Source: Streptomyces sp. NBC_01460
Lineage (GTDB): Bacteria > Actinomycetota > Actinomycetes > Streptomycetales > Streptomycetaceae
Length of the DNA stretch: 64,000 bases
Direction of reading: 5' to 3'
Assembly (NCBI RefSeq): GCF_036227405.1
Contig: NZ_CP109473.1
Span: 620,001 to 684,000 of the forward strand
The notes under the pieces were generated by a model. The model was not told the DNA's origin. It made no database searches and saw nothing but the letters and a program-made list of their open reading frames with translations. Both the position numbers and the translations under genes were made by a program. Of the stretch, positions 50,977 through 64,000 are shown piece by piece. Within the stretch, counting starts at the first letter, position 1. Every line of letters begins with the position of its first letter.

Positions 50977-51570
50977 TTGCAACAGCCGAGCTCCCCGGGA
51001 ACGGTTCACGCCCCTCGGCCGGAGGGCGTGCCGCCGTCGAGCGTGCTCGGCCTCAACGCCTACCTCATGTACGCGACGGGCAAGGCCGCGCGCCGCAGAC
51101 TCACCGACACGCTGACGGCGTACGGGCTGCGGCTGTGGCATCTGACCATCCTGGCCATGCTGGACGACGCCGGCCGGCTGTCCAAGGGGGATCTCGCCAC
51201 GCGGCTGGACATGAACCAGAGCGACCTGACCAGGACCGTCACCGGCCTGGAGGCGGCGGGGTACGTGGAGTGCGCCCGCGACCCCTCGGACCGCCGCCGC
51301 ATCGAGGTCGCCCTGACACCCGCGGGCAGGTGCGCGCTGGCCCGGCTCAACTCCGACGTGTCGGCCACCGAGGCGTACCTCCTCGCCCCGTTGACCGGAG
51401 AGGAGCGCGACGTGTTCGCCTCCCTGCTGCGCCGCGTCCACACGCACCTGGAGCGGGACCGGGCCGGGGACGCGCCCACCTTCGCCGCGCCGGGCGGGGC
51501 CGGACCGGACGGCGGGCACGACACACGTCCGGGCACCCTTCGGCCCGTGGGATCCCGCCCCTCCCCCTGA
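50977..51570 (+). CDS. MarR-family transcriptional regulator
   Basis: A 197-aa winged-helix regulator: LSKGDLATRLDMNQSDLTRT is the recognition region and ARDPSDRRRIEVALTPAGR the wing. TTG 50977 is chosen for its GAGGAAG ribosome binding site; the ATG 13 bases earlier is out of frame. An iron-box-like sequence upstream suggests iron-dependent expression, unusual for this class. The last 40 residues are Gly/Pro-rich and disordered. Confidence 0.82.
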   Translation: MQQPSSPGTVHAPRPEGVPPSSVLGLNAYLMYATGKAARRRLTDTLTAYGLRLWHLTILAMLDDAGRLSKGDLATRLDMNQSDLTRTVTGLEAAGYVECARDPSDRRRIEVALTPAGRCALARLNSDVSATEAYLLAPLTGEERDVFASLLRRVHTHLERDRAGDAPTFAAPGGAGPDGGHDTRPGTLRPVGSRPSP

Positions 51571-51578
51571 GCCCGCGA

Positions 51579-52460
51579 TCACACGGAGCTACGGGCGTCC
51601 CCCGTGGGCACCACGCCGTGCGGGCCGGTGCCGGACCGCTCCGCCTGCTCGGTGAGCGCGGCCAGGCGTTCGGCGTCCCGTGTGCCGGGCTCGGCGGTGT
51701 AGATCATGACGCGCAGGTCGCTGCCCGCCACCGTGAGCACGTCGCAGTCCAGGGTCACCGGGCCGACGTTGGGGTGGTCGACGGTCTTGCGTGCCGCCTC
51801 GTGCCGGCCCGTCGCGCCGGAGTCCCACAGCTCGGCGAACCTGTCACTGTGCGTGCGCAATTCCGCGACCAGGCGTTTCAGCGGTTCGTCGGCCGGATAG
51901 CGGGCGGCGGCCGTACGCAGGTCGGAGACCAGGGCGGCCTCGAACCTGGCCCGCGACCCGGAGGTGTGCCGGGCCCTGCCGGGCGGGCCGACCATGGTGC
52001 GCCACACCCCGTTGCGTCGGTTGCCCCGCCACGCCGACGGGTCACCCATCAGCGCCGCATAGGGCGCGTTGGCCTGCAGCAGGGTCCAGGTGGCGTCGGA
52101 GACCGCGACGGGTGTTCCGGCCAGCCGGTCCAGCATGCGGTGGACGCTCGGCGGGATGCGGCCCGGCACCGTGCCCGGGCCCGGCGTCGCCAGACCGGCC
52201 AGCTCGAACAGGTGCGCGCGTTCCTCCCCGCCCATGCGCAGAGCGCGTGCCAGGGCCTCGACGACCTGTGCCGAGGGGTGGGAGGCACGGCCCTGTTCGA
52301 GCCGGGTCACGTAGTCGACGGAGATTCCCGCCAGCAGGGCCAGTTCCTCCCGGCGCAGTCCGGCCGCCCTCCGCCGGCCGCCGGCGGGCAGCCCCGTGTC
52401 CCCCGGTGCGACCCGGTCGCGCCGACGGCGCACCGCCTTGCCGAACTCCGCCGTCGTCAT
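51579..52460 (-). CDS. Helix-turn-helix regulator with MmyB-like ligand domain
   Basis: A 293-aa regulator: N-terminal XRE domain (LRREELALLAGISVDYVTRL) and a C-terminal MmyB/MLTR-type ligand-binding domain (about 105-275; VSDATWTLLQANAPYAALMG, FAELWDSG, LTVAGSDLRVMIYTAEPG). Such regulators are often divergent from a single oxidoreductase gene, as here, where an SDR starts 101 bases away. ATG 52460. Confidence 0.9.
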   Translation of the reverse strand: MTTAEFGKAVRRRRDRVAPGDTGLPAGGRRRAAGLRREELALLAGISVDYVTRLEQGRASHPSAQVVEALARALRMGGEERAHLFELAGLATPGPGTVPGRIPPSVHRMLDRLAGTPVAVSDATWTLLQANAPYAALMGDPSAWRGNRRNGVWRTMVGPPGRARHTSGSRARFEAALVSDLRTAAARYPADEPLKRLVAELRTHSDRFAELWDSGATGRHEAARKTVDHPNVGPVTLDCDVLTVAGSDLRVMIYTAEPGTRDAERLAALTEQAERSGTGPHGVVPTGDARSSV

Positions 52461-52561
52461 GCCACCAGTGTGCACCGGCGGCCGTCCGCCGTCCTGGTAC
52501 CGGCAGTCCCAGGAAAACCGGGTCACTGGTCCGCTCCGCCGCACCGGCGCACCGTGGACGC

Positions 52562-53254
52562 ATGACCACCACACTGATCACCGGAGCGAACAAGGGTCTC
52601 GGCTTCGAGACCGCCCGAAGGCTCGTCGAGGCGGGGCACACCGTGTACGTCGGGAGCCGGGACGCCGAACGCGGGCGGCGGGCCGCCGAGCGGCTGGGCG
52701 CGCGCATGCTGCACATCGACGTCACCGACGACGCGTCCGTCGCGGCGGCCGCGAAGGCCGTGGAGGCCGACGGCGGGCTGGACGTGCTGATCAACAACGC
52801 CGGGATCGAGGGGACGGTCGTCGGCGCGGAGGACACCACAGCGGGCACCCTGCGGCCGCTCTTCGAGACCAACGTGTTCGGACCGGTCCGCGTCCTGCAC
52901 GCGTTCCTGCCGCTGCTCCGGCGCTCCGCCGCACCGGCCGTGGTGAACGTGAGCAGCGGTCTGGCGTCGCTGACCCTGGTCAGCACACCCGGCACCCCTC
53001 ACCGCGCCTATCCCGGCGTCGCCTATCCGGCCTCCAAGACCGCCCTCAACATGATCACCGTCCAGTACGCGAAGGCCTTTCCGGACATCCGGATCACCGC
53101 GGTGGAGCCCGGCTTCACCGCCACGGACCTGAACGGGCACCGGGGCACGCAGACCGTCGAGGAGGGGGCCGAGATCATCGTCCGTACGGCCCTGGTGGGG
53201 GCGGACGGTCCGACCGGCGGGTACGTCGACGCCTCCGGCCCTCTCCCCTGGTGA
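52562..53254 (+). CDS. Short-chain dehydrogenase/reductase
   Basis: A 230-aa classical SDR: TGANKGLGFETARRL at the N-terminus, NNAG, Ser in NVSSGLAS and YPASK for Tyr/Lys. Carbonyl-reductase-like (TGANKG variant). Divergent from the MmyB-type regulator, which probably controls it. Converges with the Rieske oxygenase gene, 22 bases apart. Confidence 0.9.
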   Translation: MTTTLITGANKGLGFETARRLVEAGHTVYVGSRDAERGRRAAERLGARMLHIDVTDDASVAAAAKAVEADGGLDVLINNAGIEGTVVGAEDTTAGTLRPLFETNVFGPVRVLHAFLPLLRRSAAPAVVNVSSGLASLTLVSTPGTPHRAYPGVAYPASKTALNMITVQYAKAFPDIRITAVEPGFTATDLNGHRGTQTVEEGAEIIVRTALVGADGPTGGYVDASGPLPW

Positions 53255-53276: not shown

Positions 53277-54293
53277 TCAGGCCCCCGCCGTCGACTGGGC
53301 CTCTGCGGCCGCGCGGTAGAGGCGGCGCAGCCGCACCACGCCCAGGTCGTGCTGGTAGAGGTTCTCGCGCTGGTCGGCGTCGGCCGGCATGGCCTCCAGC
53401 ATGACCCGGTCCTGTTCCAGGACGTCCCAGTGGCGCTGCTCGATCAGCGTCCGGTACAGGAAGCGCCAGGACGCGCGCTGCCAGTCCTGGACGCGGCGGT
53501 AGCGCCAGAAGAAGACGCCGGTGCGCCGCACGTCCACGGGGCAGACCATGCCGACGATGCCGAACGCGCCACCGGGACCGGCCGAGGGCGGGTACGGGAT
53601 GGAGAGGTCGACCCAGTCCACTCCGGTGCGGCAGAGCTCCACCCAGTCGAAGTTGACGCCGCGCTGGTCGGTCTTCTCGAAGAAGTAGCCGCGGGCGGTC
53701 TCGCGGATGCGGAACTTGGCCGTGGTGTCGCCGTCGAACATCGTGTGCGAGTCGTGGTGGAGGAACGCGCCGTGCATGGGGTCGAGCAGGTTCTCCACGG
53801 CGTACCGCCAGGGCGCGTCCCACTCCGCGTAGCAGAGGAAGGCGTCCACGTCGGGGTCGGTCAGCGGCTCCGGCAGGGTCAGCTCGGCGGGCTCGGGGTG
53901 CTCCTCGTCCCCGAAGTAGGCGAGGATCGCACCGGCGACCTCACGCACGGGCAGCGACGTCACCAGCTTCTTGCCCTCCAGGCTGCACCCGGGCAGCCCG
54001 GGCACCGAGGAGACCGTGCCGTCGGGTTCGACCTCGACGCCGTGGTACCAGCAGGCGACCCGGTCGCCGAGGTGTTTGCCGAGGGAGAGCGGGGCTCCTC
54101 GGTGCGGACAGCGGTCGGCGAGCATGGACAGCGCTCCGTCGGAGCGGCGGAACAGCAGCCACTGCTCGCCGAGCGCGGTCACCTTGCGCATCGCGCCCGG
54201 GGCCACGAAGTGCGAGGGGACGACCGCGTGCCACTGGTTGCGCAGCCCGGTCGCGTAGATGTGGTCCGCGGTGGCGGAGGACGACAGCGTCAT
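53277..54293 (-). CDS. Rieske non-haem iron oxygenase, terminal component
   Basis: A 338-aa aromatic-ring or O-/N-dealkylating oxygenase. Rieske cluster ligands are in CPHRGAPLSLG and CWYHG (Cys-His, Cys-His); the mononuclear iron site is ENLLDPMHGAFLHHDSH with His-x4-His. VanA/phthalate-oxygenase-like single-subunit type. ATG 54293 follows 2 bases after the stop of the 74-aa gene. With the reductase at 54549 it makes a two-component oxygenase. Last gene of the catabolic operon. Confidence 0.92.
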   Translation of the reverse strand: MTLSSSATADHIYATGLRNQWHAVVPSHFVAPGAMRKVTALGEQWLLFRRSDGALSMLADRCPHRGAPLSLGKHLGDRVACWYHGVEVEPDGTVSSVPGLPGCSLEGKKLVTSLPVREVAGAILAYFGDEEHPEPAELTLPEPLTDPDVDAFLCYAEWDAPWRYAVENLLDPMHGAFLHHDSHTMFDGDTTAKFRIRETARGYFFEKTDQRGVNFDWVELCRTGVDWVDLSIPYPPSAGPGGAFGIVGMVCPVDVRRTGVFFWRYRRVQDWQRASWRFLYRTLIEQRHWDVLEQDRVMLEAMPADADQRENLYQHDLGVVRLRRLYRAAAEAQSTAGA

Positions 54294-54295
54294 GG

Positions 54296-54520
54296 TCAGG
54301 CTCCCAGTCGGTTCATCTCGGCGCGGAAGGACTCCTCGGTCCACGGGCTGCCGTCGGCGGCGTGGACCTGACGGGCGTTGAGCCCGCGCACCACGTCGGT
54401 GAGTTCGTGGCCCTCGCGGGTGAAGACCTCTTCGAGGGTGGCGGCGAGCTTGTACTCGTACGGGGTGGGCTCGTGCGTACGGGACTGGTGGACGTCCAGG
54501 TACGGCCAGGTGTCGGTCAC
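54296..54520 (-). CDS. Small helix-turn-helix-like protein (74 aa) of a Rieske operon
   Basis: A 74-aa protein with a YEYKLAATLEEVFTREGHELTDVV helical region and a C-terminal DGSPWTEESFRAEMNRLG motif resembling the DNA-recognition part of recombinase HTH domains. Proteins of this kind are annotated as recombinase-like HTH proteins and occur next to Rieske oxygenases, so it may serve as a small oxygenase subunit or chaperone rather than a DNA binder. It is sandwiched tightly between reductase and oxygenase genes. Confidence 0.72.
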   Translation of the reverse strand: MTDTWPYLDVHQSRTHEPTPYEYKLAATLEEVFTREGHELTDVVRGLNARQVHAADGSPWTEESFRAEMNRLGA

Positions 54521-54548
54521 GGTGTCTCCTGAGGGTGCGGGGGAAGGT

Positions 54549-55484
54549 TCACAGGTCGAGGACGAGCCGGCCGGAGGCGCACCGCGAGACGCAGATCATC
54601 ATCGAGGCGCCCGCGGCCCGTTCGGCCTCGCTGAGCAGGAAGTCGCGGTGGTCGGGGGTGCCTTCGAGCACGCGGGTCTCGCAGGATCCGCAGATCCCGT
54701 CGCGGCACGAGCTCTCCACGGCGAGCCCGGCGCTCTCGGCGGCCTCCAGGACGGACGTCCCGGCACCGACGGTGAGCGTCAGACCGGAGGTGCGGCACTC
54801 GACCTGGAACGCCTCGTCGCCGCCGTCGTGCTCCACCGTCGGCGCGGCGAACCGTTCCAGGCGCAGCCGGTCCCCGGGGCAGCGCTGCTCGACGGCCGTG
54901 AGCAGCGGTTCGGGGCCGCAGGAGTACACGAGGGTGCCGTCGGGAAGCCCGGTGAGCGCGGCGTCCAGGTCGATATGGCCCTGCTCGTCCTGCGGCACGA
55001 GGGTGACGTCGCCGCCGAGCGCGTCGAGTTCGCCGCTGAACGCCATGGAAGCCCGGCTCCTGCCGCCGTAGACCATCCGCCACGCGGTGCCCCGCCGTGC
55101 CGCCTCACGGGCCATCGCCAGCAGGGGGGTGATCCCGATCCCACCGGCGACGAACACATAGGCGTCGGCGTCCTCCAGCTCGAAGCGGTTGCGTGGCTCG
55201 GATACCGTGATCTGCTGGCCGGGCCGCAGCTGGGTGTGCACGAAGCGCGATCCGCCTCGCGAGGCGGGCTCGTTGAGCACGCCGACGCGGTAGACGTCCG
55301 GGGTGTGCGGGTCTCCGCACAGACTGTACTGGCGGACCTGGCCGCCGGCGTGGACGTCGAGGTGCGCGCCGGGGGTCCAGGCGGGCAGGGGTTTGCCGTC
55401 GGGGTGGGCCAGCTCGACGGACAGGACGCCCTCGGCCTCCCAGGTCATGCGACGGACGGTCAGCCGCAGCGAGTCCTCGCTCAT
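54549..55484 (-). CDS. Oxygenase reductase (FMN/NADH/2Fe-2S, VanB-like)
   Basis: A 311-aa phthalate-dioxygenase-reductase-type protein. Flavin motif RQYSLCGDP near 50-58, NAD motif VAGGIGITPLLAMA near 115-128, and a C-terminal plant-type 2Fe-2S ferredoxin with CRDGICGSCETRV plus the fourth Cys in ICVSRC. It hands NADH electrons to the Rieske oxygenase encoded 255 bases downstream. ATG 55484. Confidence 0.92.
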   Translation of the reverse strand: MSEDSLRLTVRRMTWEAEGVLSVELAHPDGKPLPAWTPGAHLDVHAGGQVRQYSLCGDPHTPDVYRVGVLNEPASRGGSRFVHTQLRPGQQITVSEPRNRFELEDADAYVFVAGGIGITPLLAMAREAARRGTAWRMVYGGRSRASMAFSGELDALGGDVTLVPQDEQGHIDLDAALTGLPDGTLVYSCGPEPLLTAVEQRCPGDRLRLERFAAPTVEHDGGDEAFQVECRTSGLTLTVGAGTSVLEAAESAGLAVESSCRDGICGSCETRVLEGTPDHRDFLLSEAERAAGASMMICVSRCASGRLVLDL

Positions 55485-55522
55485 GGTCTGTTGCCTCCTT
55501 ACCGGCAGTTCGGGGTGACGGG

Positions 55523-57148
55523 CTACTGGCCCGGGATCCGCACGGGCGGGGTGAACGGGTTCTTCATCGGACCGAGGGCGTCCAGGTCGACCTCGACGAG
55601 CGTGGGGCCGTCCGAGGCGACGGCCTCGGTGAGCACCGGCGCCGCGTGCTCCGCCGCGGAGATGCGGGCGTACGGCAGTCCGCAGGCGCGGGCGAGCAGC
55701 TCGAAGTCCGGTGTGGTCAGGTCGACCCCGGAGCGGCGGTCGCCGTGGTGGTCCTGCATGTTGCGCAGGACTCCGTAGCCGCCGTCGTTGAAGACGATCA
55801 GGGTCAGCCGGGGCCGCTCCTGGGCGAGGGTGAGGAGTTCGCCGAGGTGGACGGCGAGGCCGCCGTCCCCGGCGATCACCACGGTGGGTGTACCGGGCCG
55901 AGCGAGCGCCGCGCCGATGCCCATGCCCAGCCCCTGGCCGATGCCTCCACCGCGCGGGAAGACGTTGTCCCTGGGGTCGTACATCTCCAGCAGGCGGTTG
56001 CCCCAGCTGCTGGAGGGGATGGTGACGTCGCGGGCGACGACGGCCTCGCGGGGCAGGGCCGCGCGGATCGCGTCGCAGATCGCGGCCTGCGGGCCGATCG
56101 TGTCGTGCAGGATCGCGCGCACCTCGGTGCGTACGGCGCCGACGCGGTCGGTCCAGCCGGCCTCGGCGGGGACGCCGTGCGGCAGCAGGCCGTCCAGCGC
56201 CAGGGCGGCGTCTGCGTGCAGCGGGTGGGTGGCCGGGTACACCCTGCCGAGGGCGGCCGCCTCGACGTCGATCTGGATGTGGGCCCCGGGGAGTTCCAGG
56301 GTGTAGTCGGAGGTCTCGTTCGACCGGAAGTGCGTGCCGATGGTCAGCAGGACGTCCGCGTCGGCGAGCAGGGCCCGCACAGCGGGGGTGGTGGCGAAGT
56401 TGCCGATGACCTGCTCGTGGTCCTCGGGCACGCTGCCGCGCCCGGAGTTGGAGGTGATCAGTCCGGCGCCGGTGGCCTCCAGCAGGGCGGCCAGTTCGCC
56501 GCGCGCGGTGTTCGCGCCGCCGCCCGCCCAGATCAGGGGGCGTCGGGCGGAGGCCAGGAGGGCCCCCGCGGCAGCGAGTCCGGCCGTGTCGGGTGCGGTG
56601 GGGGCGGGCGCGGCGAAGGGGGCGGGCTCGTCGCTCTGCGCCGCGTACTGGAGGTCGATCGGCCACTCGACGCTCGCGGGGCCGCCGGGCGCGGTCAGTG
56701 CCGAGCGGGCAGCCTCGCGCAGGATCCGGCCGGCCTGCCCGGCGTCCGGGATGCTCGCGGCGTAGGCGGAGACGGCCTCCAGCATGCCGAGCTGGTCCTT
56801 GGTCTCGTGGATGAACCCCCTTCCGCTGCCCAGGAATTCGCTCTCGACCTGGCCGGTGACGTGCAGCACGGAGCTGCCCGCGCTCAGTGCCTCGATCAGG
56901 GATCCGGCCGCGTTCCCCGCGCCGGTGCCCGTCGAGGTGAGGGCGCAGCCGAGGGTGCCCCGGGCGCGGCCGTAGGCGTCGGCGGCGTTGACGGCGGACG
57001 CCTCGTGCCGCACGGGTACGAACCGAAGTTCGCGGTCGACGGCTTCGACGAGCGGCAGGTTGTGGACGCTGACGATACCGAAGACGGTGTCGATGCCGAG
57101 TTCGCGCAGGACGGTGACGAGGAGATCGCCTCCGTTGTCGTGACGCAT
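55523..57148 (-). CDS. Thiamine-diphosphate-dependent decarboxylase-like enzyme
   Basis: A 541-aa acetolactate-synthase-fold enzyme. Catalytic Glu in PVRHEASAVNAADAYGRARG, ThDP/Mg motif beginning GDGGLAVHLGEL and ending FNDGGYG. Compared with acetolactate synthases it lacks the usual FAD-binding pattern, and benzoylformate decarboxylase or similar 2-oxo-acid decarboxylases fit as well. In this operon it could decarboxylate an arylglyoxylate to an aldehyde or split a 2-oxo acid after ring cleavage. ATG 57148. Confidence 0.87.
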   Translation of the reverse strand: MRHDNGGDLLVTVLRELGIDTVFGIVSVHNLPLVEAVDRELRFVPVRHEASAVNAADAYGRARGTLGCALTSTGTGAGNAAGSLIEALSAGSSVLHVTGQVESEFLGSGRGFIHETKDQLGMLEAVSAYAASIPDAGQAGRILREAARSALTAPGGPASVEWPIDLQYAAQSDEPAPFAAPAPTAPDTAGLAAAGALLASARRPLIWAGGGANTARGELAALLEATGAGLITSNSGRGSVPEDHEQVIGNFATTPAVRALLADADVLLTIGTHFRSNETSDYTLELPGAHIQIDVEAAALGRVYPATHPLHADAALALDGLLPHGVPAEAGWTDRVGAVRTEVRAILHDTIGPQAAICDAIRAALPREAVVARDVTIPSSSWGNRLLEMYDPRDNVFPRGGGIGQGLGMGIGAALARPGTPTVVIAGDGGLAVHLGELLTLAQERPRLTLIVFNDGGYGVLRNMQDHHGDRRSGVDLTTPDFELLARACGLPYARISAAEHAAPVLTEAVASDGPTLVEVDLDALGPMKNPFTPPVRIPGQ

Positions 57149-57157
57149 GGTGTCTCC

Positions 57158-57946
57158 TCAGAGGATGGAGCGGCCGACGCCGCCGCAGACGTCGATGCTG
57201 GTGCCGGTGATGTAGGAGGCGCGGGGCGAGAGCAGGGCGACGACCGCGTACGCGACCTCCTCGGCCCGGCCGAGGCGGCCGAGCGCGATGCCCCGGTCCC
57301 CGGCCAGTCCCGCCTGCCAGTCCTCGTACGAGAGGCCGGAGTCCGCGGCCGCGTGACGGCGGGTCCACTGGCCGGTGTCGACGAGGCCGAGGCAGACGGA
57401 GTTGACCCGGATCCCGTCGCCGGCGAGTTCGACGGAGAGGGACTTGGAGAGGTTGAGGATGCCGGCGCGGGCGGCGCTCGTGGTGATCAGGCGGGTCTCC
57501 GGCTGTTTGGCGAGGACCGCGTTGATGTTGACGACGCTCGCCGCTCCGGAGGCGGCGAGGTGGGGGCGCGCGGCCTGGAGGGGGTTGAGCACCCCGGCGA
57601 ACTTCAGCTCCAGTTCGTCGCGCCAGTCCTCGGCGGTGGAGTCGTCGAGTCCCTTCATCCGGGACTGTCCGGCGTTGTTGACCAGTCCGTCGACGCCGCC
57701 GAACTCCTCGGCGGTGCGGCGGACGAAACCGCGGACGGCGCCGGCGTCCCGTACGTCGCACACGCCGGTCAGCAGGCGGTCGCCCGGTGCGCCGAGACCG
57801 GCGACCGCCTCGGCGAGCCGGCCGGCGTCACGGCCGCAGGTGGCGACGCGGGCGCCCTCGTCGAGCAGGGCGCGGACCGTGGCCAGGCCGACGCCCGAGC
57901 TGCCGCCGGTGACCACGATCGTGCGGTCGGCGAGGCCCAGATCCAT
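57158..57946 (-). CDS. SDR-fold protein lacking the YxxxK motif
   Basis: A 262-aa SDR: cofactor loop TGGSSGVGLATVRAL and NNAG are intact and the tail ends in GTSIDVCGGVGRSIL. The catalytic region is altered: Ser position reads NINAVLA and the YxxxK position reads TSAAR, so Tyr and Lys are replaced by Thr and Arg. SDRs with a TSAARAG segment recur in aromatic catabolic clusters, so this is probably a conserved subfamily rather than decay. ATG 57946. It is next to a normal SDR gene. Confidence 0.85.
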   Translation of the reverse strand: MDLGLADRTIVVTGGSSGVGLATVRALLDEGARVATCGRDAGRLAEAVAGLGAPGDRLLTGVCDVRDAGAVRGFVRRTAEEFGGVDGLVNNAGQSRMKGLDDSTAEDWRDELELKFAGVLNPLQAARPHLAASGAASVVNINAVLAKQPETRLITTSAARAGILNLSKSLSVELAGDGIRVNSVCLGLVDTGQWTRRHAAADSGLSYEDWQAGLAGDRGIALGRLGRAEEVAYAVVALLSPRASYITGTSIDVCGGVGRSIL

Positions 57947-57965
57947 AACTCGTGTCTCCTGCGTG

Positions 57966-58721
57966 TCAGTTCATGGTGAAGCCGCCGTTGACGGCGATCA
58001 CCTGTCCGGTCAGATAGCGGGACTCCTCGCCGAGCAGGAAGGAGACGATCCCCGTGAGGTCGTCGGGCTGCTGCGGCCGGGTGATGGCCCGGTTCATGCG
58101 GTAGAGGTCGTGCCGCTCGGCGGGCACGGTCTCGGTGGCCTCGCACTCGGTGAGGCCGGGGGCCACCGCGTTGACGGTGATCCCCTTCCCGCCGAGTTCG
58201 CGTGCCATCGCGCGGGTCAGCGCGATGACGGCGCCCTTGGAGGCGATGTAGTGCGCGAGACGCGGCGAGCCGTACAGCGCGGCGTCCGAGGCAAGGTTGA
58301 CGATCCGGCCGGGCCCGGTGAGGAGCGGGTACAGGGCCTTCGACACGAGCCAGGGGCTGCGGGCGTTGACCGCCATCAGCCGGTCCCACACCTCGATGTC
58401 GATGTCCTGGAACTCGCGTCCGCCGACACCGTTGGCGAGCGCCGCGTTGTTGACGAGGCCGTACAGCGGGCCCAGATCGCGCACGGCGTCGGCGAGCGCC
58501 TCCACGGAGGCGGGGTCGGCGACGTCGCAGCGTACGAAGTGGGCGTCGAGGCCCTCCGCACGCAGCTCGGAGGCGGCGTGCTCGCCACGCTCGCGTTCCA
58601 GTTCCGCGAGGACGACCCGGAAGCCGTCGGTGCCCGCCCGACGGGCCATGGCCAGTCCGAGGCCACGGCCCGCTCCGGTGACGACGACGGTGCGCCGGCC
58701 TGCCGGGGGCAGGTCAGCCAC
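57966..58721 (-). CDS. Short-chain dehydrogenase/reductase
   Basis: A 251-aa classical SDR with TGAGRGLGLAMARR, NNAA, catalytic Ser in NLASDAALYG and YIASK for Tyr/Lys, ending NGGFTMN. GTG 58721 overlaps the cupin stop by 8 bases. Likely oxidises an alcohol or cis-diol intermediate; forms a pair with the motif-lacking SDR 19 bases downstream. Confidence 0.88.
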   Translation of the reverse strand: MADLPPAGRRTVVVTGAGRGLGLAMARRAGTDGFRVVLAELERERGEHAASELRAEGLDAHFVRCDVADPASVEALADAVRDLGPLYGLVNNAALANGVGGREFQDIDIEVWDRLMAVNARSPWLVSKALYPLLTGPGRIVNLASDAALYGSPRLAHYIASKGAVIALTRAMARELGGKGITVNAVAPGLTECEATETVPAERHDLYRMNRAITRPQQPDDLTGIVSFLLGEESRYLTGQVIAVNGGFTMN

Positions 58722-59235
58722 GGGTCACGCCGTGCATCGGCGAGTACTCGGGGTAGGTCGGCACCTGCGGCTTCTGCGTGCCGATGACGACGCAGAACAG
58801 GGCGTCGGTGTCGCCCTCGTTCTTGAGGGACCGGGTGACACCCGCCGGGACGACGATCATGTCGCGGTAGCCCAGGGTGCGGTACTCGGCCTCCTCGGCA
58901 CCCCGGTGGATGCCGACCTTGACCTCGCCCTCCAGGACGAAGAAGGCCTCCTCGACGTCGTGGTGGGTGTGGGCCGGGCCCTCGGCGCCGGGCGGCAGCA
59001 GCATGTTGGAGAAGGTGAAGCCGCCCGACGGGAGGATGCGGCTGTCGCTCTCGTGGTTGCCGGTCGCGCCGGAGCCGACGTAGCGGATCTGGCCGCGGCG
59101 GAACTGCGCGCCGGCCTTCTCCTGGAAGGAGAGGGTGTCGAAGTCGGCGACCCGGGAGGCCTTGGTGGCGATGAGGGAGTCGGTGTACGCGGAGAGGTCG
59201 TCGCCGTTGTCGTACGCGTCGGTGGTGAGAGGCAT
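58714..59235 (-). CDS. Cupin protein with incomplete metal site
   Basis: A 173-aa single-domain cupin. Motif 1 is good (GAEGPAHTHHDVEEAFFVLEG: two His and the Glu), but in motif 2 the usual metal His is replaced by Arg (VPAGVTRSLKN). It could bind metal with three ligands or act without catalysis, for example as a binding or isomerising protein. Tightly coupled to the downstream SDR gene. ATG 59235. Confidence 0.85.
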   Translation of the reverse strand: MPLTTDAYDNGDDLSAYTDSLIATKASRVADFDTLSFQEKAGAQFRRGQIRYVGSGATGNHESDSRILPSGGFTFSNMLLPPGAEGPAHTHHDVEEAFFVLEGEVKVGIHRGAEEAEYRTLGYRDMIVVPAGVTRSLKNEGDTDALFCVVIGTQKPQVPTYPEYSPMHGVTRG

Positions 59236-59246
59236 GGTGGAGGCTC

Positions 59247-60044
59247 CTATTCAGGGATGGATGCGGTGATGCGGAGGTGGGAGAGCACCCAGGCGTCGAA
59301 GTGGCCCGGCTGCTCCTGGTTGGCCAGGTGACCGGCGTCCTTGACGATCACGTAGGCGGTCCTGTGGATGGCCCCGGCGATGGCCTGGCTCGCCTCGGTG
59401 CCGGTGACCCGGTCCTGTTCGCCGCAGAGCACGAGGGTGGGGGCGGCGATCGAGGGGAGCTCGGCCCGCAGGTCGGCGGAGGCCATGGACTCGGCGGCGT
59501 AGGCGTAGCCCGGCAGCCGTACGGAGTCGGCCATGGTGTCCACGACGCGGCGCACCAGGTCGTCGGGCGCGCCGGGCGAGACGAGCCGGGGGCCGCGGGC
59601 CTCGGCGAACGCCCGGGGGCCCAGTTCGGCGAGGTCGGCCGTCCTGGCGCGCATGCCGGCCGCCTTGGCCTCGTCGGTGCCCGAGCCTGGGCTGGAGTCG
59701 GCGACGATCAGCGAGGCGACGAGCTCCGGGTGACGGGTGGCGAGCCGCAGCGCGATCACACCGCCCCAGGACACGCCGAGGACGTGGGCGCTGTCGGCGC
59801 GCTCACGGATGAGCGCGGCGGCCGTGTCGGCGTAGTCGTCGAGGCTGACCGGACCGGCTGGGTCGGGGGACCTGGCGTAGCCGGGGGCGTCCCAGGCCAC
59901 GACCCGTGCGTAGGCGGAGAGTTCGGCGAGCTGCGGGGCGAAGGCCGCCGAGGAGGAGCCGATGCCGTGCAGGCAGAGCAGCAGCGGGCCGTGGTCGCCC
60001 GCCTCCTCGACGTGGACACCGGCGGCGGCGAGGGCGGCGCTCAC
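59247..60044 (-). CDS. Alpha/beta hydrolase (meta-cleavage-product hydrolase-like)
   Basis: A 265-aa serine hydrolase. LHGIGSSSAAF oxyanion region, nucleophile GVSWGG, acid in GEQDRVT and His in DAGHLAN. Resembles MhpC/BphD-type C-C bond hydrolases that split ring-fission products, consistent with the extradiol dioxygenase two genes upstream. GTG 60044 overlaps the stop of the dehydrogenase-like gene by 4 bases. Confidence 0.87.
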   Translation of the reverse strand: MSAALAAAGVHVEEAGDHGPLLLCLHGIGSSSAAFAPQLAELSAYARVVAWDAPGYARSPDPAGPVSLDDYADTAAALIRERADSAHVLGVSWGGVIALRLATRHPELVASLIVADSSPGSGTDEAKAAGMRARTADLAELGPRAFAEARGPRLVSPGAPDDLVRRVVDTMADSVRLPGYAYAAESMASADLRAELPSIAAPTLVLCGEQDRVTGTEASQAIAGAIHRTAYVIVKDAGHLANQEQPGHFDAWVLSHLRITASIPE

Positions 60045-60838
60045 AGGATCTGCCCGGTCCGGCCGGCGAGCGCGGCGAGGCTGCGCAGCACGGCGTACGG
60101 CACCACCTGGCTGGTGGCCGGGTTGCCCGGGTCGGGCAGGTGCGCGACCTCGAAGCGGTACGTGCCGTGTCCGCCGGACGCCTCGATCACGTGGCGGGTG
60201 TGGTGCGCCGCCGGGTCGGCGACGACCTGGACCCGCACAGCGTCCAGGTCGCCGACGGCCAGCGCGACCGAGGCGGCCACGTTCGTCGACTTGGGGAACT
60301 TGACCGGCACCTCGCGGGCGGTCCCGGACATGACCTCGACGGGACCGGTCGCCGTCCGCATCCGGTCCAGCAACTCCTGCCCCATCCACGGCTGTTCGAG
60401 GGTGGACGGCAGCTTGGTGGTGGTCAGCCGCACCTCGTCGAGCGGGCCGAGGGAGCGCACGGCCTGGAGCAGGTCGAGGCCGCCGACGGCGCCGCCGGTG
60501 AAGTACACGCGGCCGGGTCCCGCGGCCAGCAGCCGCTTCGTGAGCTCGTCGTCGGTCAGGGCGCCGGTGGAAGCGATCAGCAGATCGGTGCCGGAGGCCA
60601 GGACCCGCTCGCCCCACTCGCGCACGACGCCCTGTCCCGCGGCCTCGACGATCAGGTCGCAGGACTCCATGGCCTCCTCGAAGGTCGCCTGCCGCACGGG
60701 GGCGGCCTCGCCGAGCGGGCGGTTGTCGACGACGCAGACCAGCTCGGCGCCGGTCACCCGGCCTTCGGCGAGCGCGGCGCCGACCACCCGGCCGATGGCA
60801 CCCCAGCCGACGACGGCGACCTTGCGTACGGTGCTCAT
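60041..60838 (-). CDS. Aspartate-dehydrogenase-like (DUF108) protein
   Basis: A 265-aa protein with a Rossmann motif VVGWGAIGRVVGAAL and the aspartate dehydrogenase C-terminal domain (about 155-250; STNVAASVALAVG, HVIEASGGHGTYRFE). Aspartate dehydrogenase homologues normally make iminoaspartate for NAD synthesis; inside a catabolic operon it more probably acts on another amino or keto acid intermediate. ATG 60838 overlaps the dioxygenase stop by 4 bases. Confidence 0.87.
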   Translation of the reverse strand: MSTVRKVAVVGWGAIGRVVGAALAEGRVTGAELVCVVDNRPLGEAAPVRQATFEEAMESCDLIVEAAGQGVVREWGERVLASGTDLLIASTGALTDDELTKRLLAAGPGRVYFTGGAVGGLDLLQAVRSLGPLDEVRLTTTKLPSTLEQPWMGQELLDRMRTATGPVEVMSGTAREVPVKFPKSTNVAASVALAVGDLDAVRVQVVADPAAHHTRHVIEASGGHGTYRFEVAHLPDPGNPATSQVVPYAVLRSLAALAGRTGQIL

Positions 60839-61845
60839 GCGGTGGCCTCCTGGGCGTCTACGGGTGCGAGCGGGTCCGGGCCCTCGGCCTCTACGGGTGA
60901 GAGCGGGCCGGGGCCCTGGGTGTCGGCGGAAGCGAGCGGGCCGGGGTCCGGGGAGCCGGCCATGCTGCAGCGGATGTCCTTCGAGGGCGGGCCGGCCGTC
61001 CCCCACAGGTCGGAGAGCTCGGGGACCCGCCGCCACACCCGGGCGATCCAGGCGTCCTCGACGATCTGGGCGACCTCGGAGGTGTACTCGCAGACCAGCC
61101 CGGACGGGTCGGTGAAGTAGGAGAAGGTGTTGTTCCCGGGACCGTGGCGGCCGGGTCCCCACTGGGGGGTGATCCCGTGGTGGCGCAGCCGCCCCAGGCC
61201 CCGCATGAAGTGGTCGACCGAGGTCATCTCGTACGCCACGTGGTTCAGCGAGGTCCACTCCGCCTGGTTGAAGGCGATGCAGTGGTGGTCGCTGTTGCAG
61301 CGCAGGAACGCCATCTGGTGCTCGGACCAGTCGGAGACGCGCAGCCCGAGGACGTCGCGGTAGAAGGCGACCGCGGCGTCGATGTCGGTGGTGTTGAGCA
61401 CGGCGTGGGTCACCCCGACGGGCACGGCACCGTCCCGGCCGCGTGGCGTGACCGCCTCGACCTGGGCGCTGATCTCGATGAGACGGCCCTCGGGATCGGT
61501 GAACCGCAGTCCGTAGCCGCCGCCGGCCTGGTCCAGGGGGCCGGGTCCGGTGACGGGCACGATCGAGCGCGCCTCGAGGCGCCGGGCCGCGAGGTCGACC
61601 TCGGCGGGTGTGGCGACGGCGAAGGCGATCCGGCCGAGGCCGACGCGGTCGCGCTCGGTGAGGTGGAGGACGTGGTGCTCGTCGCTCGTACCGCGGAGCC
61701 AGCGGGCGCCGGTGTCGGACTCGACGGTCTCGAGGCCCCAGACGTCCTCGTAGAAGTCGGCGGCCTCGGTGAAGGCCGGGGTCTGCAGCTCGACGTAGCG
61801 GAGCGAGCGGAGCCGGGCGATCGGACCGGGCGGTGGTTGGTGCAT
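60835..61845 (-). CDS. Two-domain extradiol (VOC) dioxygenase
   Basis: A 336-aa type I extradiol dioxygenase. Two VOC modules: an N-terminal non-metal one (about 12-130) and a C-terminal catalytic one (about 142-270) with iron ligands His147 (GVTHAVL), His202 (LNHVAYE) and Glu253 (CEYTSE). Catechol 2,3-dioxygenase-like ring cleavage is expected. The last 42 residues are a Pro/Ala/Glu tail built from three imperfect 11-13-residue repeats, unusual for this family. ATG 61845. Second gene of the operon. Confidence 0.9.
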   Translation of the reverse strand: MHQPPPGPIARLRSLRYVELQTPAFTEAADFYEDVWGLETVESDTGARWLRGTSDEHHVLHLTERDRVGLGRIAFAVATPAEVDLAARRLEARSIVPVTGPGPLDQAGGGYGLRFTDPEGRLIEISAQVEAVTPRGRDGAVPVGVTHAVLNTTDIDAAVAFYRDVLGLRVSDWSEHQMAFLRCNSDHHCIAFNQAEWTSLNHVAYEMTSVDHFMRGLGRLRHHGITPQWGPGRHGPGNNTFSYFTDPSGLVCEYTSEVAQIVEDAWIARVWRRVPELSDLWGTAGPPSKDIRCSMAGSPDPGPLASADTQGPGPLSPVEAEGPDPLAPVDAQEATA

Positions 61846-61877
61846 GGGGTCCCTCCAGGACGGGCGGGGATGCCGGG

Positions 61878-63362
61878 TCAGTTGGCCCAGGGAAGCGGGT
61901 GGTCCGAGATGCCCCAGTACAGGGACTTCTGGCGCTGGTAGGCGCGGATCGCGTCGCGGCCCTTCTCCGTGCCGAGGCCGCTGTCCTTCCACCCGCTGAA
62001 GGGGGTGGAGGCACTGAACTGCTTGTAGGTGTTGATCCAGACGGTTCCGGCCTCGATCCGGCGGGCCAGCGCACCGGCGGCGCGGAGGTCGCGGGTCCAG
62101 ATGCCGCAGGCCAGGCCGTAGACGGAGTCGTTGGCCTGGCGGACCAGGTCGTCCTCGTCGTCGTAGGGCAGGGCGACCAGGACGGGGCCGAAGATCTCCT
62201 CCTGGCAGGTGCGCGAGGTGTTCGCCAGGCCGTCGAGGACGGTGGGCAGGTAGTAGGCCCCGTCCTCGTACAGCTCCCCCTCGGGGGCCGAGCCGCCGCA
62301 CAGCACGCGGGCGCCCTCGGAGCGGGCGAGGTCGACGTAGGCGGCGACGGAGTCGCGGTGGCGGTGGTGGACCAGGGGGCCGACCTGGGTGGTGGGGTCG
62401 GTGCCGGGGCCGACCCGCAGCCCGGCCGCCCGCTCGACGAGTGCGCCGACGAAGGAGTCGTAGATCTCCCGCGCCACGAAGAGTCTCGAACCGGCGATGC
62501 AGGACTGGCCGCTGGACGAGAAGATCCCGAACAGCACGCCGGCCAGGGCCTGTTCGATGTCGGCGTCGGCCCGCACGATCGTCGCCGACTTGCCGCCCAG
62601 TTCCAGCGAGGCGGGGATCAGCTTCCGCGCGGCGGTCTCCGCGATGGACCGCCCGGTCTCCGTGCCTCCGGTGAATCCGATACGCCCGACGAGCGGGTGG
62701 CGTACGAGGGCGTCACCGACCACCCGGCCGCTGCCTGGCAGCACGGAGAACAGTGCGGCCGGCAGCCCGAACTCGCCGAGCGCCCGGAAGATCAGCTTCC
62801 CGAGCGCGAGGGAGACCAGCGGGGTCCAGGCGGCGGGCTTGAGGATCACCGCGTTACCCGCGGCGAGGGCTGGGGCGATCTTCTGCGCGTCGCTGGCGAC
62901 CGGGGAGTTCCAGGGGTTGATCGCGCCGACGACCCCGATCGGCTCGTGCGTGCTCACGGTGGCGTACGGGCCCCGGGACGGGGTCACGGACTCCTCGGTG
63001 GTCTCCAGGACGGCCGCCATGTAGCGGAAGGTGCCCGCCGCGCTGAGCGCGAGGGCCCTGGTCTCGGTGAGCGTCTTGCCGGTGTCCGCGGTCTGCAGGG
63101 CGGAGAGCTCGTCGGCGGCCTGCTCGGTGAGCTCGCCGATCCGATGCAGCAGCCGGGCCCGTGCGTGGGCGGGAAGGTCGCGCCAGGCAGGGTCTGCCAC
63201 GGCTTCGGCGGCGGCCAGGGCCGCTTCCGCGACCTCGTCCGCGGATGCGGAGTGGACGGTGGCGAGCACGCGGCCGGTGGCCGGGTCGACGGTGTCGACG
63301 GGCTCGCCCGCACCGCGCCGCCACTGGCCCGCGATCAGGATGTCGGTGGGGAACTGCGGCAC
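61878..63362 (-). CDS. Aldehyde dehydrogenase
   Basis: A 494-aa NAD(P)-dependent aldehyde dehydrogenase: NPWNSP substrate channel, Glu in LELGGKSA, catalytic Cys in SSGQSCIAGSR, and FGPV near the end. Best role is oxidation of a semialdehyde from ring cleavage or of an aromatic aldehyde. GTG 63362 with GGAGG 9 bases upstream. First gene of the leftward operon, facing the divergent MFS gene. Confidence 0.93.
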   Translation of the reverse strand: MPQFPTDILIAGQWRRGAGEPVDTVDPATGRVLATVHSASADEVAEAALAAAEAVADPAWRDLPAHARARLLHRIGELTEQAADELSALQTADTGKTLTETRALALSAAGTFRYMAAVLETTEESVTPSRGPYATVSTHEPIGVVGAINPWNSPVASDAQKIAPALAAGNAVILKPAAWTPLVSLALGKLIFRALGEFGLPAALFSVLPGSGRVVGDALVRHPLVGRIGFTGGTETGRSIAETAARKLIPASLELGGKSATIVRADADIEQALAGVLFGIFSSSGQSCIAGSRLFVAREIYDSFVGALVERAAGLRVGPGTDPTTQVGPLVHHRHRDSVAAYVDLARSEGARVLCGGSAPEGELYEDGAYYLPTVLDGLANTSRTCQEEIFGPVLVALPYDDEDDLVRQANDSVYGLACGIWTRDLRAAGALARRIEAGTVWINTYKQFSASTPFSGWKDSGLGTEKGRDAIRAYQRQKSLYWGISDHPLPWAN

Positions 63363-63450
63363 GGGTGGACCTCCGGACGAGGCGGAAAAGGGGTGAACTC
63401 CGGGCGGGGGCAGGCTTGTCGGATTGCCGCCACCTGACTGCCGAAGCACT

Positions 63451-63474
63451 AGAAATCTAAGTGCTTAAGTTTCT
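63451..63474. promoter_or_regulatory. Imperfect 24-bp palindrome at the divergent promoter
   Basis: Arms AGAAATCTAAG and CTTAAGTTTCT around TG, two mismatches, with core TAAG-TG-CTTA. Lies 89 bases upstream of the aldehyde dehydrogenase start. A second TAAG-N2-CTTA core occurs at 63573. Confidence 0.65.
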
Positions 63475-63558: not shown

Positions 63559-63572
63559 GGGAACACAGTTCC

Positions 63573-63582
63573 TAAGCTCTTA
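63573..63582. promoter_or_regulatory. Second TAAG-N2-CTTA site
   Basis: TAAGCTCTTA, the same core as in the palindrome at 63451, about 70 bases before the MFS start. Two sites, one for each direction, fit a shared regulator. Confidence 0.55.
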
Positions 63583-63652
63583 ACCATTGACCGCTTAGAT
63601 ATAGCCCCCCTACTGTCGCCGGAACTCATCTGCCCGCGGAAGGACACCCTCC

Positions 63653-64000
63653 ATGACGACTGTGGCCGGCAAACCCGCTCTCGGCTCCATTGCCGCGAGA
63701 CTCGAACGACTGCCGCACTCGCGCTGGCACGTCAAGGTCCGGTTCCTGATCGGCGCCGTCACCTTCTTCGAGGCCTTCGATCAGCTGCTGGCCGCGTCCG
63801 CGCTGCCCGTCCTGATGAAGGAATGGCACCTGAGCACCGGGCAGGCCACCTTCGCCGTCACCTCCGCCTCGATCGGCATGCTGCTCGGCGCACTGGCCGC
63901 CGGATGGCTCGGGGACCGCATCGGCCGGGTCCGCACCGTCGCCCTGGGCGTCGCCGTCACCGGCTTCGCCAGCCTCGCCGTGGCGTTCTCCGGCAGCATC
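63653..64000 (+). CDS. MFS transporter, N-terminal part (cut by window edge)
   Basis: The first 116 codons of a major facilitator: three hydrophobic segments and the MFS loop GDRIGRVRTVAL after TM2. The N-terminal VRFLIGAVTFFEAFDQLLAA (Asp in TM1) is typical of the aromatic-acid:H+ symporter and related families. ATG 63653. Divergent from the ring-cleavage operon, it is the likely importer of the aromatic substrate. Confidence 0.87.
   Translation, partial: MTTVAGKPALGSIAARLERLPHSRWHVKVRFLIGAVTFFEAFDQLLAASALPVLMKEWHLSTGQATFAVTSASIGMLLGALAAGWLGDRIGRVRTVALGVAVTGFASLAVAFSGSI

Follow-up and report, generated by a model that had tools for sequence, protein, structure and literature searches.

A widespread two-module gene cluster of Streptomyces predicted to degrade an aromatic carboxylic acid, possibly kynurenate

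Introduction

Kynurenic acid is a breakdown product of tryptophan. In Pseudomonas, kynurenate is degraded by 7,8-dihydroxylation followed by 8,8a extradiol cleavage; to our knowledge, this degradation is familiar from enzymology only, and literature searches returned no gene assignment for it. Such a route would call for three activities, namely ring dihydroxylation, dihydrodiol dehydrogenation and extradiol cleavage, and the gene cluster described here has candidate genes for all three. Formation of 7,8-dihydroxykynurenate from kynurenate was described for Pseudomonas fluorescens (Taniuchi and Hayaishi 1963, as cited in a passage of PMC5610271). A Rieske oxygenase with a reductase, acting on a tryptophan-derived bicyclic acid, is also a feature of the iad auxin-degradation locus of Variovorax, as presented in parts of PMC10374108 and PMC12633357; unlike the cluster described here, iad in these accounts has large and small oxygenase subunits and anthranilate as the end product. 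The words 'thiamine', 'extradiol' and 'cupin' are absent from the main text of PMC10374108.

Canonical meta-cleavage of catechol or homoprotocatechuate also employs an extradiol dioxygenase, an aldehyde dehydrogenase (ALDH) and an alpha/beta hydrolase, as well as HpaB, a type of enzyme found in a variant of our cluster. However, the cluster lacks the hydratase, aldolase, tautomerase and acylating dehydrogenase of these pathways and has instead a ThDP-dependent enzyme, an aspartate-dehydrogenase-like (AspDH-like) protein, a cupin and a short-chain dehydrogenase/reductase (SDR) without the catalytic Tyr and Lys. We know of no familiar meta-cleavage pathway that includes these four proteins, in agreement with the original prediction, which had placed the AspDH-like and cupin genes outside textbook pathways. 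Carbazole 1,9a-dioxygenase, 2-oxoquinoline 8-monooxygenase and dicamba monooxygenase are alpha-only Rieske oxygenases, like the one encoded here (∼20% identity in structural alignment), which is set apart from them by a linked HTH_62 protein. Clusters of the haloarchaea Halocatena salina and Salinigranum rubrum share with ours a ring-hydroxylating oxygenase, an HcaB-like SDR, a VOC protein, a ThDP enzyme, an AspDH and an IclR regulator; their oxygenase, however, is of the alpha/beta type, and in Halocatena the ThDP enzyme is just 24% identical and the hydrolase is not similar. These clusters are analogous to ours rather than the same.

Gene content and organization of the locus

The window, i.e. 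the whole 64,000-nt stretch of DNA analysed, was inspected for ORFs. All eleven ORFs of the cluster (53277–63362, minus strand) are present, neighbouring genes being separated by at most 38 bp or overlapping (three instances), and Pfam upholds the family assignments. The ALDH gene (61878–63362) comes first, 32 bp from the gene for a two-domain type I extradiol dioxygenase of the VOC fold (EDO, 60835–61845); the latter overlaps by 4 nt the AspDH-like gene (60041–60838), which in turn overlaps by 4 nt the alpha/beta hydrolase gene (ABH, 59247–60044). After 11 bp follows the cupin gene (58714–59235), overlapping by 8 nt that of the first SDR (SDR1, 57966–58721); the second SDR gene (SDR2, 57158–57946) and the ThDP enzyme gene (55523–57148) stand 19 and 9 bp further on, respectively. 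The reductase gene (54549–55484) is 38 bp from the ThDP gene and 28 bp from the gene of the 74-aa HTH_62 protein (54296–54520), and the Rieske oxygenase gene (53277–54293) ends the run after 2 bp. ORFs, Pfam families and coordinates thus bear out the predicted eleven-gene leftward run with overlapping starts, as well as the divergent MFS gene, which starts at 63653 on the plus strand and extends beyond the window end.

ALDH (494 aa; Pfam Aldedh, 526 bits) starts with a GTG at 63362 preceded by GGAGG, and scores below the cut-offs of the best 25 NCBIfam models listed. EDO (336 aa; Pfam Glyoxalase) misses all four NCBIfam subfamily cut-offs compared (catechol 2,3-dioxygenase, HpaD, BphC and HsaC), and its closest solved chain, 3b59, is uncharacterized. 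Still, EDO has the His, His, Glu metal ligands and second-shell His/His/Tyr of type I extradiol dioxygenases: H147, H202 and E253 together with H188, H234 and Y243 are kept in 84/85 loci, and ligands and second-shell residues alike in 11/11 aligned sequences. In the AspDH-like protein (265 aa), Asp_DH_C and NAD_binding_3 are above the Pfam cut-off and His216, the conserved His expected along with the NadX domain, occurs in 88/88 loci; the NadX equivalog score is 149.9 bits versus a cut-off of 206.55, which makes it less likely that the protein is an AspDH and leaves unaffected the idea that it works on a related imine. ABH (265 aa; Abhydrolase_1) has Ser92-Asp211-His239 in 88/88 loci; its best PDB match is 3-oxoadipate enol-lactonase, with AAMS hydrolase and RutD among weaker ones. 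H89, H91, E95 and E96 of the cupin (173 aa; Cupin_2) are kept in 90/90 loci.

The ThDP enzyme (541 aa), a proposed 2-oxo-acid decarboxylase, belongs to the PRK07064 family (NCBIfam NF005470, 689.7 bits, cut-off 495) and has Glu49 in 90/90 loci. SDR2 (262 aa) is a PRK07062-type protein (NF005468, 346.8 bits, above the 266 cut-off) in which Thr156/Arg160 replace Tyr/Lys in 91/93 loci and Ser/Arg do so in one more. Since the catalytic Tyr-xxx-Lys is lacking in 92/93 loci, we doubt that the two SDRs of the original prediction are two dehydrogenases. In SDR1 (251 aa; adh_short_C2), the classical triad Ser145-Tyr158-Lys162 is present in 89/90 loci. The best NCBIfam model for SDR1, below its cut-off, is pyridoxal 4-dehydrogenase rather than a dihydrodiol dehydrogenase.

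For the Rieske oxygenase, an alpha-only protein of the phthalate family, the start at 54293 (338 aa) is preferred over a GTG at 54344. The CxH...CxxH ligands, the bridging Asp and the 2-His-1-carboxylate iron site are all in place. Its structural matches (carbazole dioxygenase, dicamba and guaiacol demethylases, NdmA) all lie within ∼1.5 Z and so do not single out N-heterocycles. The reductase (311 aa; NAD_binding_1 and a C-terminal [2Fe-2S] ferredoxin domain, Fer2) has no NCBIfam model above cut-off. The HTH_62 protein (PF20552, 109 bits) travels with the Rieske oxygenase; it was found in 2/198 Actinomycetota genomes, both with the cluster.

No gene for a 2-hydroxypentadienoate hydratase, aldolase or acylating dehydrogenase was found by Pfam among the eleven genes of the window, nor does the annotation of the ten proteobacterial replicons viewed show one inside the operon.

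A natural exchange separates two modules

The cluster of two Streptomyces genomes is without the genes for Rieske oxygenase, reductase, SDR1 and HTH_62; in their place it encodes an HpaB-type phenol hydroxylase (573 bits, below its cut-off) along with a protein having an HsaB/HpaC-like reductase domain. Seven genes are retained: EDO, ThDP, ALDH, ABH, cupin, SDR2 and AspDH-like. One of the two genomes has no Rieske match anywhere at E ≤ 1e-5; the other has just two distant partial matches (28–29%), elsewhere in the genome. The other 28 of 30 Streptomyces loci returned have SDR1, reductase and HTH_62 around ThDP.

A two-module architecture is thus very probable. Because the exchange replaces the hydroxylating genes while the other seven stay, the assignment of catechol formation to the upper group (Rieske oxygenase, reductase, SDR1 and the HTH_62 protein) and of ring cleavage and fission-product handling to the lower seven is well supported. 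The exchange is a built-in control for separating upper from lower steps.

Distribution of the cluster

Of 80 actinobacterial loci fetched, 65 had 9.5 kb or more upstream of the Rieske gene, and in 62/65 of these all eleven genes recur with order and strand unchanged, which is more than chance. The three exceptions are a locus with no ThDP match (L009), one where ALDH, EDO and AspDH were not found and which contains 9 N (L068), and one with ALDH and AspDH not found, where the fetched stretch starts at the EDO gene (L079). Reshuffled, the set occurs in Klebsiella, Acinetobacter, Caballeronia, Cupriavidus, Novosphingobium and Rhodobacterales; ThDP, AspDH and ALDH are contiguous in all nine annotated proteobacterial replicons showing the three. 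Plasmid-collection records with a Rieske match at E ≤ 1e-50 have a ThDP gene <10 kb away in 26/26 cases. ThDP was above its cut-off in 9/150 Streptomycetaceae genomes, in all nine beside SDR1, SDR2, reductase and HTH_62. Related oxygenases are listed also from Serratia, Providencia, Erwinia and Pantoea. In Caballeronia SBC2, one fumarylacetoacetate-hydrolase-family gene lies ∼8 kb from the cluster on the other strand.

The gene set is therefore widespread in Actinobacteria and alpha-, beta- and gammaproteobacteria, and the operon is not 'unfamiliar' in the sense of rare. Literature searches found no described operon with this gene set and no exact match to a characterized one. The lower module lies outside familiar meta-cleavage pathways yet is common to these groups, and the set occurs in bacteria of the soil as well as in human-associated genera such as Klebsiella.

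Proposed pathway and substrate

The genes present and their conservation, the intactness of the catalytic residues and the module exchange are observed; every reaction, the order of steps and the substrate we infer. Gene families, conservation and the exchange support the predicted aromatic catabolic operon combining ring hydroxylation, meta-cleavage and fission-product processing. The best overall explanation, which has a little under an even chance of being right, is an aerobic two-module pathway for an aromatic carboxylic acid, most likely kynurenate; the choice of kynurenate itself is tentative. The Rieske oxygenase and reductase, with the HTH_62 protein, would cis-dihydroxylate the ring, SDR1 would rearomatize the diol to a catechol and EDO would open the ring. 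Decarboxylation of the fission product at its 2-oxo acid by the ThDP enzyme would give an aldehyde for oxidation by ALDH; ABH, SDR2 and the cupin may open and trim the remainder, and the AspDH-like enzyme would take a nitrogen-bearing C4 fragment.

With kynurenate (4-hydroxyquinoline-2-carboxylate), 7,8-dihydroxylation and 8/8a cleavage would give a pyridone with a 2-oxobutenoate chain. C2(COOH)-N, C3 and C4 of this pyridone form an iminosuccinate/aspartate skeleton, and its release by ring cleavage would explain the AspDH-like gene. In the HpaB variant, xanthurenate, the 8-hydroxylated analogue, could yield the same catechol. An N-heterocyclic acid is favoured by retention of the AspDH-like gene in the lower module, by a RidA-family gene (enamine/imine deaminase, models below cut-off) after the Rieske gene in Caballeronia M1242 and by a RidA domain above the Pfam cut-off near a Rhodococcus locus. 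Moreover, Caballeronia NK8 has, next to a second Rieske copy, a Mo-hydroxylase from the same family as quinoline 2-oxidoreductase; it was seen at just this one of the ten proteobacterial replicons viewed and scores higher with 4-hydroxybenzoyl-CoA reductase (437.6 bits) than with quinoline 2-oxidoreductase (267.6 bits). Linkage to tryptophan or kynurenine genes, a supporting rather than defining feature, was not seen: the gene table of the ten replicons, which is incomplete, shows none flanking the cluster, and the only tryptophan 2,3-dioxygenase of the genome itself is ∼3.3 Mb away. The kynurenate scheme offers no convincing role for SDR2 or the cupin, and Pseudomonas extracts reportedly convert kynurenate to glutamate, alanine and acetate, which the scheme does not directly predict.

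It is quite possible, if short of probable, that the same two modules serve another aromatic acid, e.g. of the phenylalanine/tyrosine type or a hydroxyphenyl acid with side-chain nitrogen, the Rieske oxygenase taking the unhydroxylated and HpaB the phenolic version. Such an arene/phenol pairing is equally natural, and the swapped oxygenase, EDO and ALDH have HpaB-2, HpaD and HpaE, respectively, among their highest-scoring models, though all with scores below cut-off. In the haloarchaeal analogue, too, AspDH and ThDP occur together with an oxygenase resembling HcaE/HcaF, whose beta subunit exceeds the PRK10069 cut-off, and with a dihydrodiol dehydrogenase resembling HcaB. However, it is not evident how such acids would yield a product with an aspartate skeleton, and as annotated, the operons of the ten replicons contain no isomerase, hydratase or aldolase of the HpaF/G/H/I type. 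Demethylation, which the original prediction had allowed for, would make the Rieske protein an O- or N-demethylase exposing a phenol or catechol. A partial VanA_C match and the structural ties to dicamba and guaiacol demethylases agree with this; so does the neighbourhood of the cluster in Pseudosulfitobacter, with formate dehydrogenase genes at a distance of ∼5 kb, and in Paracoccus, with an FdhF-type gene at ∼4 kb. Nevertheless, demethylation is unlikely, because both HpaB variants have lost SDR1 along with the Rieske gene, as befits a cis-dihydrodiol dehydrogenase, and no formaldehyde or tetrahydrofolate gene is annotated inside the operons of the ten replicons.

An arylglyoxylate side chain had also been suggested; it, or one of the mandelate type, would undergo decarboxylation by the ThDP enzyme and oxidation by ALDH before ring attack. 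The enzyme families suit this scheme on paper, but the ThDP enzyme reaches 153.2 bits with the benzoylformate decarboxylase equivalog (cut-off 493) and stays, with ALDH, when the entire hydroxylating module is exchanged; the idea, which would also leave the AspDH-like gene unexplained, is quite improbable. The Streptomyces host and patchy presence (ThDP at E ≤ 1e-100 in 48/392 Streptomyces genomes) might recall a natural-product tailoring or biosynthetic set. This is highly improbable, as Klebsiella, Acinetobacter and Caballeronia carry the set too, accompanied by IclR regulators, transporters and, in some, porins, and the stretches read contain no annotated biosynthetic core gene.

Returning to kynurenate, the full description of the cluster as an aerobic kynurenate-degradation gene set with an HpaB-fed xanthurenate branch, a Tyr/Lys-less SDR-fold enzyme and an HTH_62-dependent Rieske system is possible but somewhat doubtful. 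If true, it would supply sequences for 7,8-dihydroxykynurenate 8,8a-dioxygenase and the enzymes that work with it, and would give genes and markers to an enzymology dating from the 1960s; these could reveal microbes removing a neuroactive, AhR-active tryptophan metabolite.

Upstream region and transporters

Upstream of ALDH lies the palindrome AAGCACTTAGATTTCTAGTGCTT (63444–63466, minus strand), conserved across an alignment of 58 upstream regions, the window included. It is the sole match at ≤3 mismatches in the window, against none in 100 shuffles, and likewise in the whole genome; a relaxed form occurs in 28/80 Rieske loci and in an overlapping stretch of the same genome (L085). The palindrome is a probable operator. 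On the MFS side, the partly conserved inverted repeat CTAAGC...GCTTAG (63572–63598) is a possible second one. The MFS transporter (455 aa; 63653–64000 within the window) resembles aromatic-acid/H+ symporters, with TIGR00895 as the best model (239 bits, below the 418.55 cut-off). Like it, the transporter of Caballeronia pNK83 is closest to aromatic-acid symporters, a point in favour of the proposed kind of substrate; against it, best matches of the MFS proteins of Klebsiella, Acinetobacter and Novosphingobium are other transporter families.

The eleven-gene operon and known systems

Gene coordinates bear out the predicted run of eleven genes on one strand, tightly packed at 53277-63362 (minus strand) of the window (G000:C1:620001-684000; genome size, 8.8 Mb). 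The gene order is aldehyde dehydrogenase (ALDH), extradiol dioxygenase (EDO), aspartate-dehydrogenase-like (AspDH-like) protein, alpha/beta hydrolase (ABH), cupin, proposed cis-dihydrodiol dehydrogenase (SDR1), a further SDR (SDR2), ThDP enzyme, reductase, 74-aa HTH_62 protein and Rieske oxygenase. The enzyme families named for these genes in the original prediction were each upheld by Pfam. Among the NCBIfam models listed (at most 25 per protein), the cut-off was passed by SDR2 (PRK07062) and the ThDP enzyme (PRK07064) only; neither model name states a function. Among named genomes, the Rieske gene has its closest relatives in Streptomyces atroolivaceus and S. silvae (97-98% identity), and S. 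atroolivaceus has the operon with proteins 89-98% identical (L001); a PF00848 search of the own genome did not detect the Rieske oxygenase of the operon. Two apparent fusions among database proteins, HTH_62-Rieske (P0179) and Rieske-SDR (P0156), were set aside, as both joins look like products of gene calling or assembly.

The neighboring stretch, window:49023-53254, carries a ferredoxin/FAD reductase-like gene, a MarR gene (50977-51570), an XRE-type regulator gene (51579-52574) and a convergent SDR gene that stops 22 bp short of the Rieske stop codon.

In the open-access literature searched, judged by titles, abstract openings and selected passages, we found neither an exact match to a characterised operon nor a description of this gene set, nor kynurenate-degradation genes mentioned by name; a published characterisation may exist elsewhere. 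The terms PRK07062, PRK07064, PF20552 and the HTH_62 domain name did not occur in the open-access literature searched. Auxin degradation (Iad/iac) was rejected as the parent system, given that the Variovorax iad gene set, as presented in the available portions of PMC10374108 and PMC12633357, differs. Quorum-quinolone, DIMBOA, caffeine and pyridine-acid pathways were dropped because matching genes were missing.

Haloarchaeal clusters in Halocatena salina (L133) and Salinigranum rubrum (L129) encode a ring-hydroxylating oxygenase, an HcaB-like dehydrogenase, a VOC protein, a ThDP enzyme and an aspartate dehydrogenase (the latter over the NadX cut-off in H. salina). Such clusters were first read as orthologous; this reading was dropped after pairwise comparisons with Halocatena, which showed a clear relationship to the operon for the AspDH, a weak one for the VOC and ThDP proteins and none for the hydrolase. 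For other AspDH matches, the cluster was absent at three of five fetched loci (Phaeobacter, Rhizobium and Haloarcula).

A putative replaceable catechol-making unit

The Streptomyces genome G524 encodes an AspDH-like protein at only 52% identity. Its locus (L142) has the ThDP, SDR2, ABH, AspDH-like, EDO, cupin and ALDH genes in one run; the Rieske, SDR1, reductase and HTH_62 genes are all absent from this locus. Adjoining the ThDP gene are genes for an HpaB-type monooxygenase (TIGR02310, 572.8 bits, under the cut-off of 885.2) and for a protein that combines an HsaB/HpaC-like flavin-reductase domain with a regulator-like C-terminus. A second Streptomyces genome, G710, has the same arrangement (L180; ThDP identity 83%). 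Control searches for the Rieske protein gave no match in G710 at E<=1e-5 and no counterpart in G524, where two partial matches (28-29% identity) lie far from the cluster. The SDR1, SDR2, ThDP, reductase and HTH_62 genes occur together in the other 28 of the 30 Streptomyces ThDP loci looked at, out of 48 matches.

Therefore, the Rieske oxygenase, SDR1, reductase and HTH_62 protein probably form one replaceable catechol-making unit, and the other seven genes would act later in the pathway. The swap favors a cis-dihydrodiol dehydrogenase role for SDR1, links HTH_62 with the oxygenase and not with the pathway at large, and puts the step of the AspDH-like enzyme later than ring opening.

Compared by HpaB protein, the close relatives among those listed are from S. 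albipurpureus (94%) and Spirillospora (86%). The HpaB clusters (L142:14527-18277 and L180) are flanked in both genomes by a divergent MarR gene, an M24-like (Xaa-Pro peptidase/creatinase-like) gene and a substrate-binding protein gene; the products of the latter two had no NCBIfam match at 1e-10.

Distribution among Actinobacteria

A scan of named genomes with the Rieske protein returned 286 stretches, 268 of them encoding relatives; the best 80 were kept (79 Streptomyces, 1 Rhodococcus). Other genomes have the same gene order: of these 80 loci, 65 extend at least 9.5 kb upstream, and 62 of the 65 have all eleven genes, with order and strand kept. The AspDH-like protein was found in 17 of 101 Streptomyces genomes (E<=1e-60), and 48 of 392 had the ThDP protein (E<=1e-100), own genome included in both counts. 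Among 150 Streptomycetaceae genomes, nine have the ThDP protein over its cut-off, and in all nine SDR1, SDR2, reductase and HTH_62 genes adjoin it. At the level of Actinomycetota, we found the Rieske protein in 2/296 genomes (E<=1e-60), the ThDP protein in 3/396 (E<=1e-120) and HTH_62 in 2/198, both with the cluster.

Locus L009 has no ThDP match and is otherwise complete; at L181 the ThDP match is split into two pieces, the gene being possibly broken. The Rhodococcus wratislaviensis locus has two metallo-beta-lactamase-fold genes between the ThDP and reductase genes (L079:5586-8686) and a RidA-domain gene downstream (L079:12403-13557), possibly ring-opening or imine-handling additions.

Clusters in proteobacteria and on plasmids

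The Rieske protein was detected (E<=1e-50) in 26 of 72,556 plasmid-collection records, each with a ThDP gene less than 10 kb from the Rieske gene. Ten proteobacterial replicons were viewed by annotation (Klebsiella pneumoniae, Acinetobacter baumannii, four Caballeronia, Novosphingobium, Nitratireductor, Pseudosulfitobacter and Paracoccus) and an unannotated one (Cupriavidus) by tblastn. The whole set is present in Cupriavidus and in nine of the ten; in the tenth, Caballeronia M1242, the cluster is cut by the record end. Gene order varies from lineage to lineage, with ThDP, AspDH and ALDH genes contiguous in all nine annotated replicons having the whole set. The fused reductase is replaced by an FAD-dependent oxidoreductase gene in 9/10 annotated replicons (five also have an annotated ferredoxin, three a flavodoxin) and by a VanB-type reductase in M1242. 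IclR regulators are present in all ten.

On Caballeronia sp. NK8 plasmid pNK84, a second ferredoxin, HTH_62 and Rieske set lies beside ThDP, VOC and three-subunit molybdenum hydroxylase genes (L087:15284-24515), adjoining a full canonical cluster.

Conservation of active sites

Residues were counted in those fetched loci where the match was readable and reached 28% identity or more. The Rieske cluster and iron ligands are kept in 95/95 loci, EDO ligands and second shell in 84/85, the ABH triad and the AspDH-like His in 88/88 each, and the cupin HHEE and the ThDP enzyme Glu in 90/90 each. SDR1 has Ser-Tyr-Lys in 89/90 loci. In SDR2, Thr/Arg replace Tyr/Lys in 91 of 93 loci, with Ser/Arg in one and Tyr/Lys in one; because of this replacement, SDR2 is unlikely, judged by sequence, to be an ordinary dehydrogenase. 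The lone SDR1 and SDR2 deviants may be cross-matches between both SDRs. Alignments of 11 sequences across lineages agree with the locus counts for EDO, SDR1 and SDR2.

Proposed pathway and substrate

Established chemistry of the enzyme families suggests an order of reactions. The Rieske oxygenase would convert an arene to a cis-diol, SDR1 the cis-diol to a catechol, and EDO the catechol to a ring-fission 2-oxo acid, from which the ThDP enzyme would produce an aldehyde and ALDH an acid. Since none of the eleven genes encodes a hydratase or aldolase, a ThDP decarboxylase acting on the 2-oxo acid would be a natural alternative route. The AspDH-like enzyme would need an iminosuccinate-shaped fragment.

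We infer that kynurenate may be the substrate, with xanthurenate, whose 8-hydroxyl is already there, suiting the HpaB variant. The 7,8-dihydroxylation of kynurenate was reportedly described by Taniuchi and Hayaishi in 1963. Subsequent 8/8a cleavage would leave the nitrogen ring as 4,6-dihydroxypicolinate, whose carboxylate, C2-N, C3 and C4 would make up the iminosuccinate skeleton after ring hydrolysis. Two loci with RidA genes and one with a molybdenum hydroxylase give side evidence for kynurenate, as does an aromatic-acid-symporter-like transporter, encoded at the window and on Caballeronia pNK83 but not at the Klebsiella, Acinetobacter and Novosphingobium clusters. Against kynurenate are the structural ties of the Rieske oxygenase with demethylases, formate dehydrogenase genes within ~5 kb at two of ten proteobacterial replicons, the AspDH-like score under its cut-off and the lack of annotated kynurenine genes near the clusters. 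That SDR2 and the cupin have no clear job in the scheme also counts against it.

Putative regulation

At 63444-63466 lies a palindrome that is the sole match in the window (none in 100 shuffles) and genome-wide at <=3 mismatches. It is conserved across 58 aligned upstream regions, the window among them; of the 80 Rieske loci, 28 carry a relaxed form. Operon-linked MarR genes are present at 52 of the 80 loci, usually directly beyond the Rieske gene. The MarR gene of the own genome immediately follows the MFS gene, outside the window (L085:3152-3739), and shares 80% identity with the MarR of locus L011. We infer that MarR binds the palindrome. A sigma70-type promoter search found none; two terminator-like sites were observed, both of them within the Rieske gene, against an expectation of 1.2. 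After the MFS/MarR pair, also beyond the window (L085:6540-12294), are sulfatase-like, formylglycine-generating-enzyme-homologue-like and peptide-type ABC transporter-like genes.
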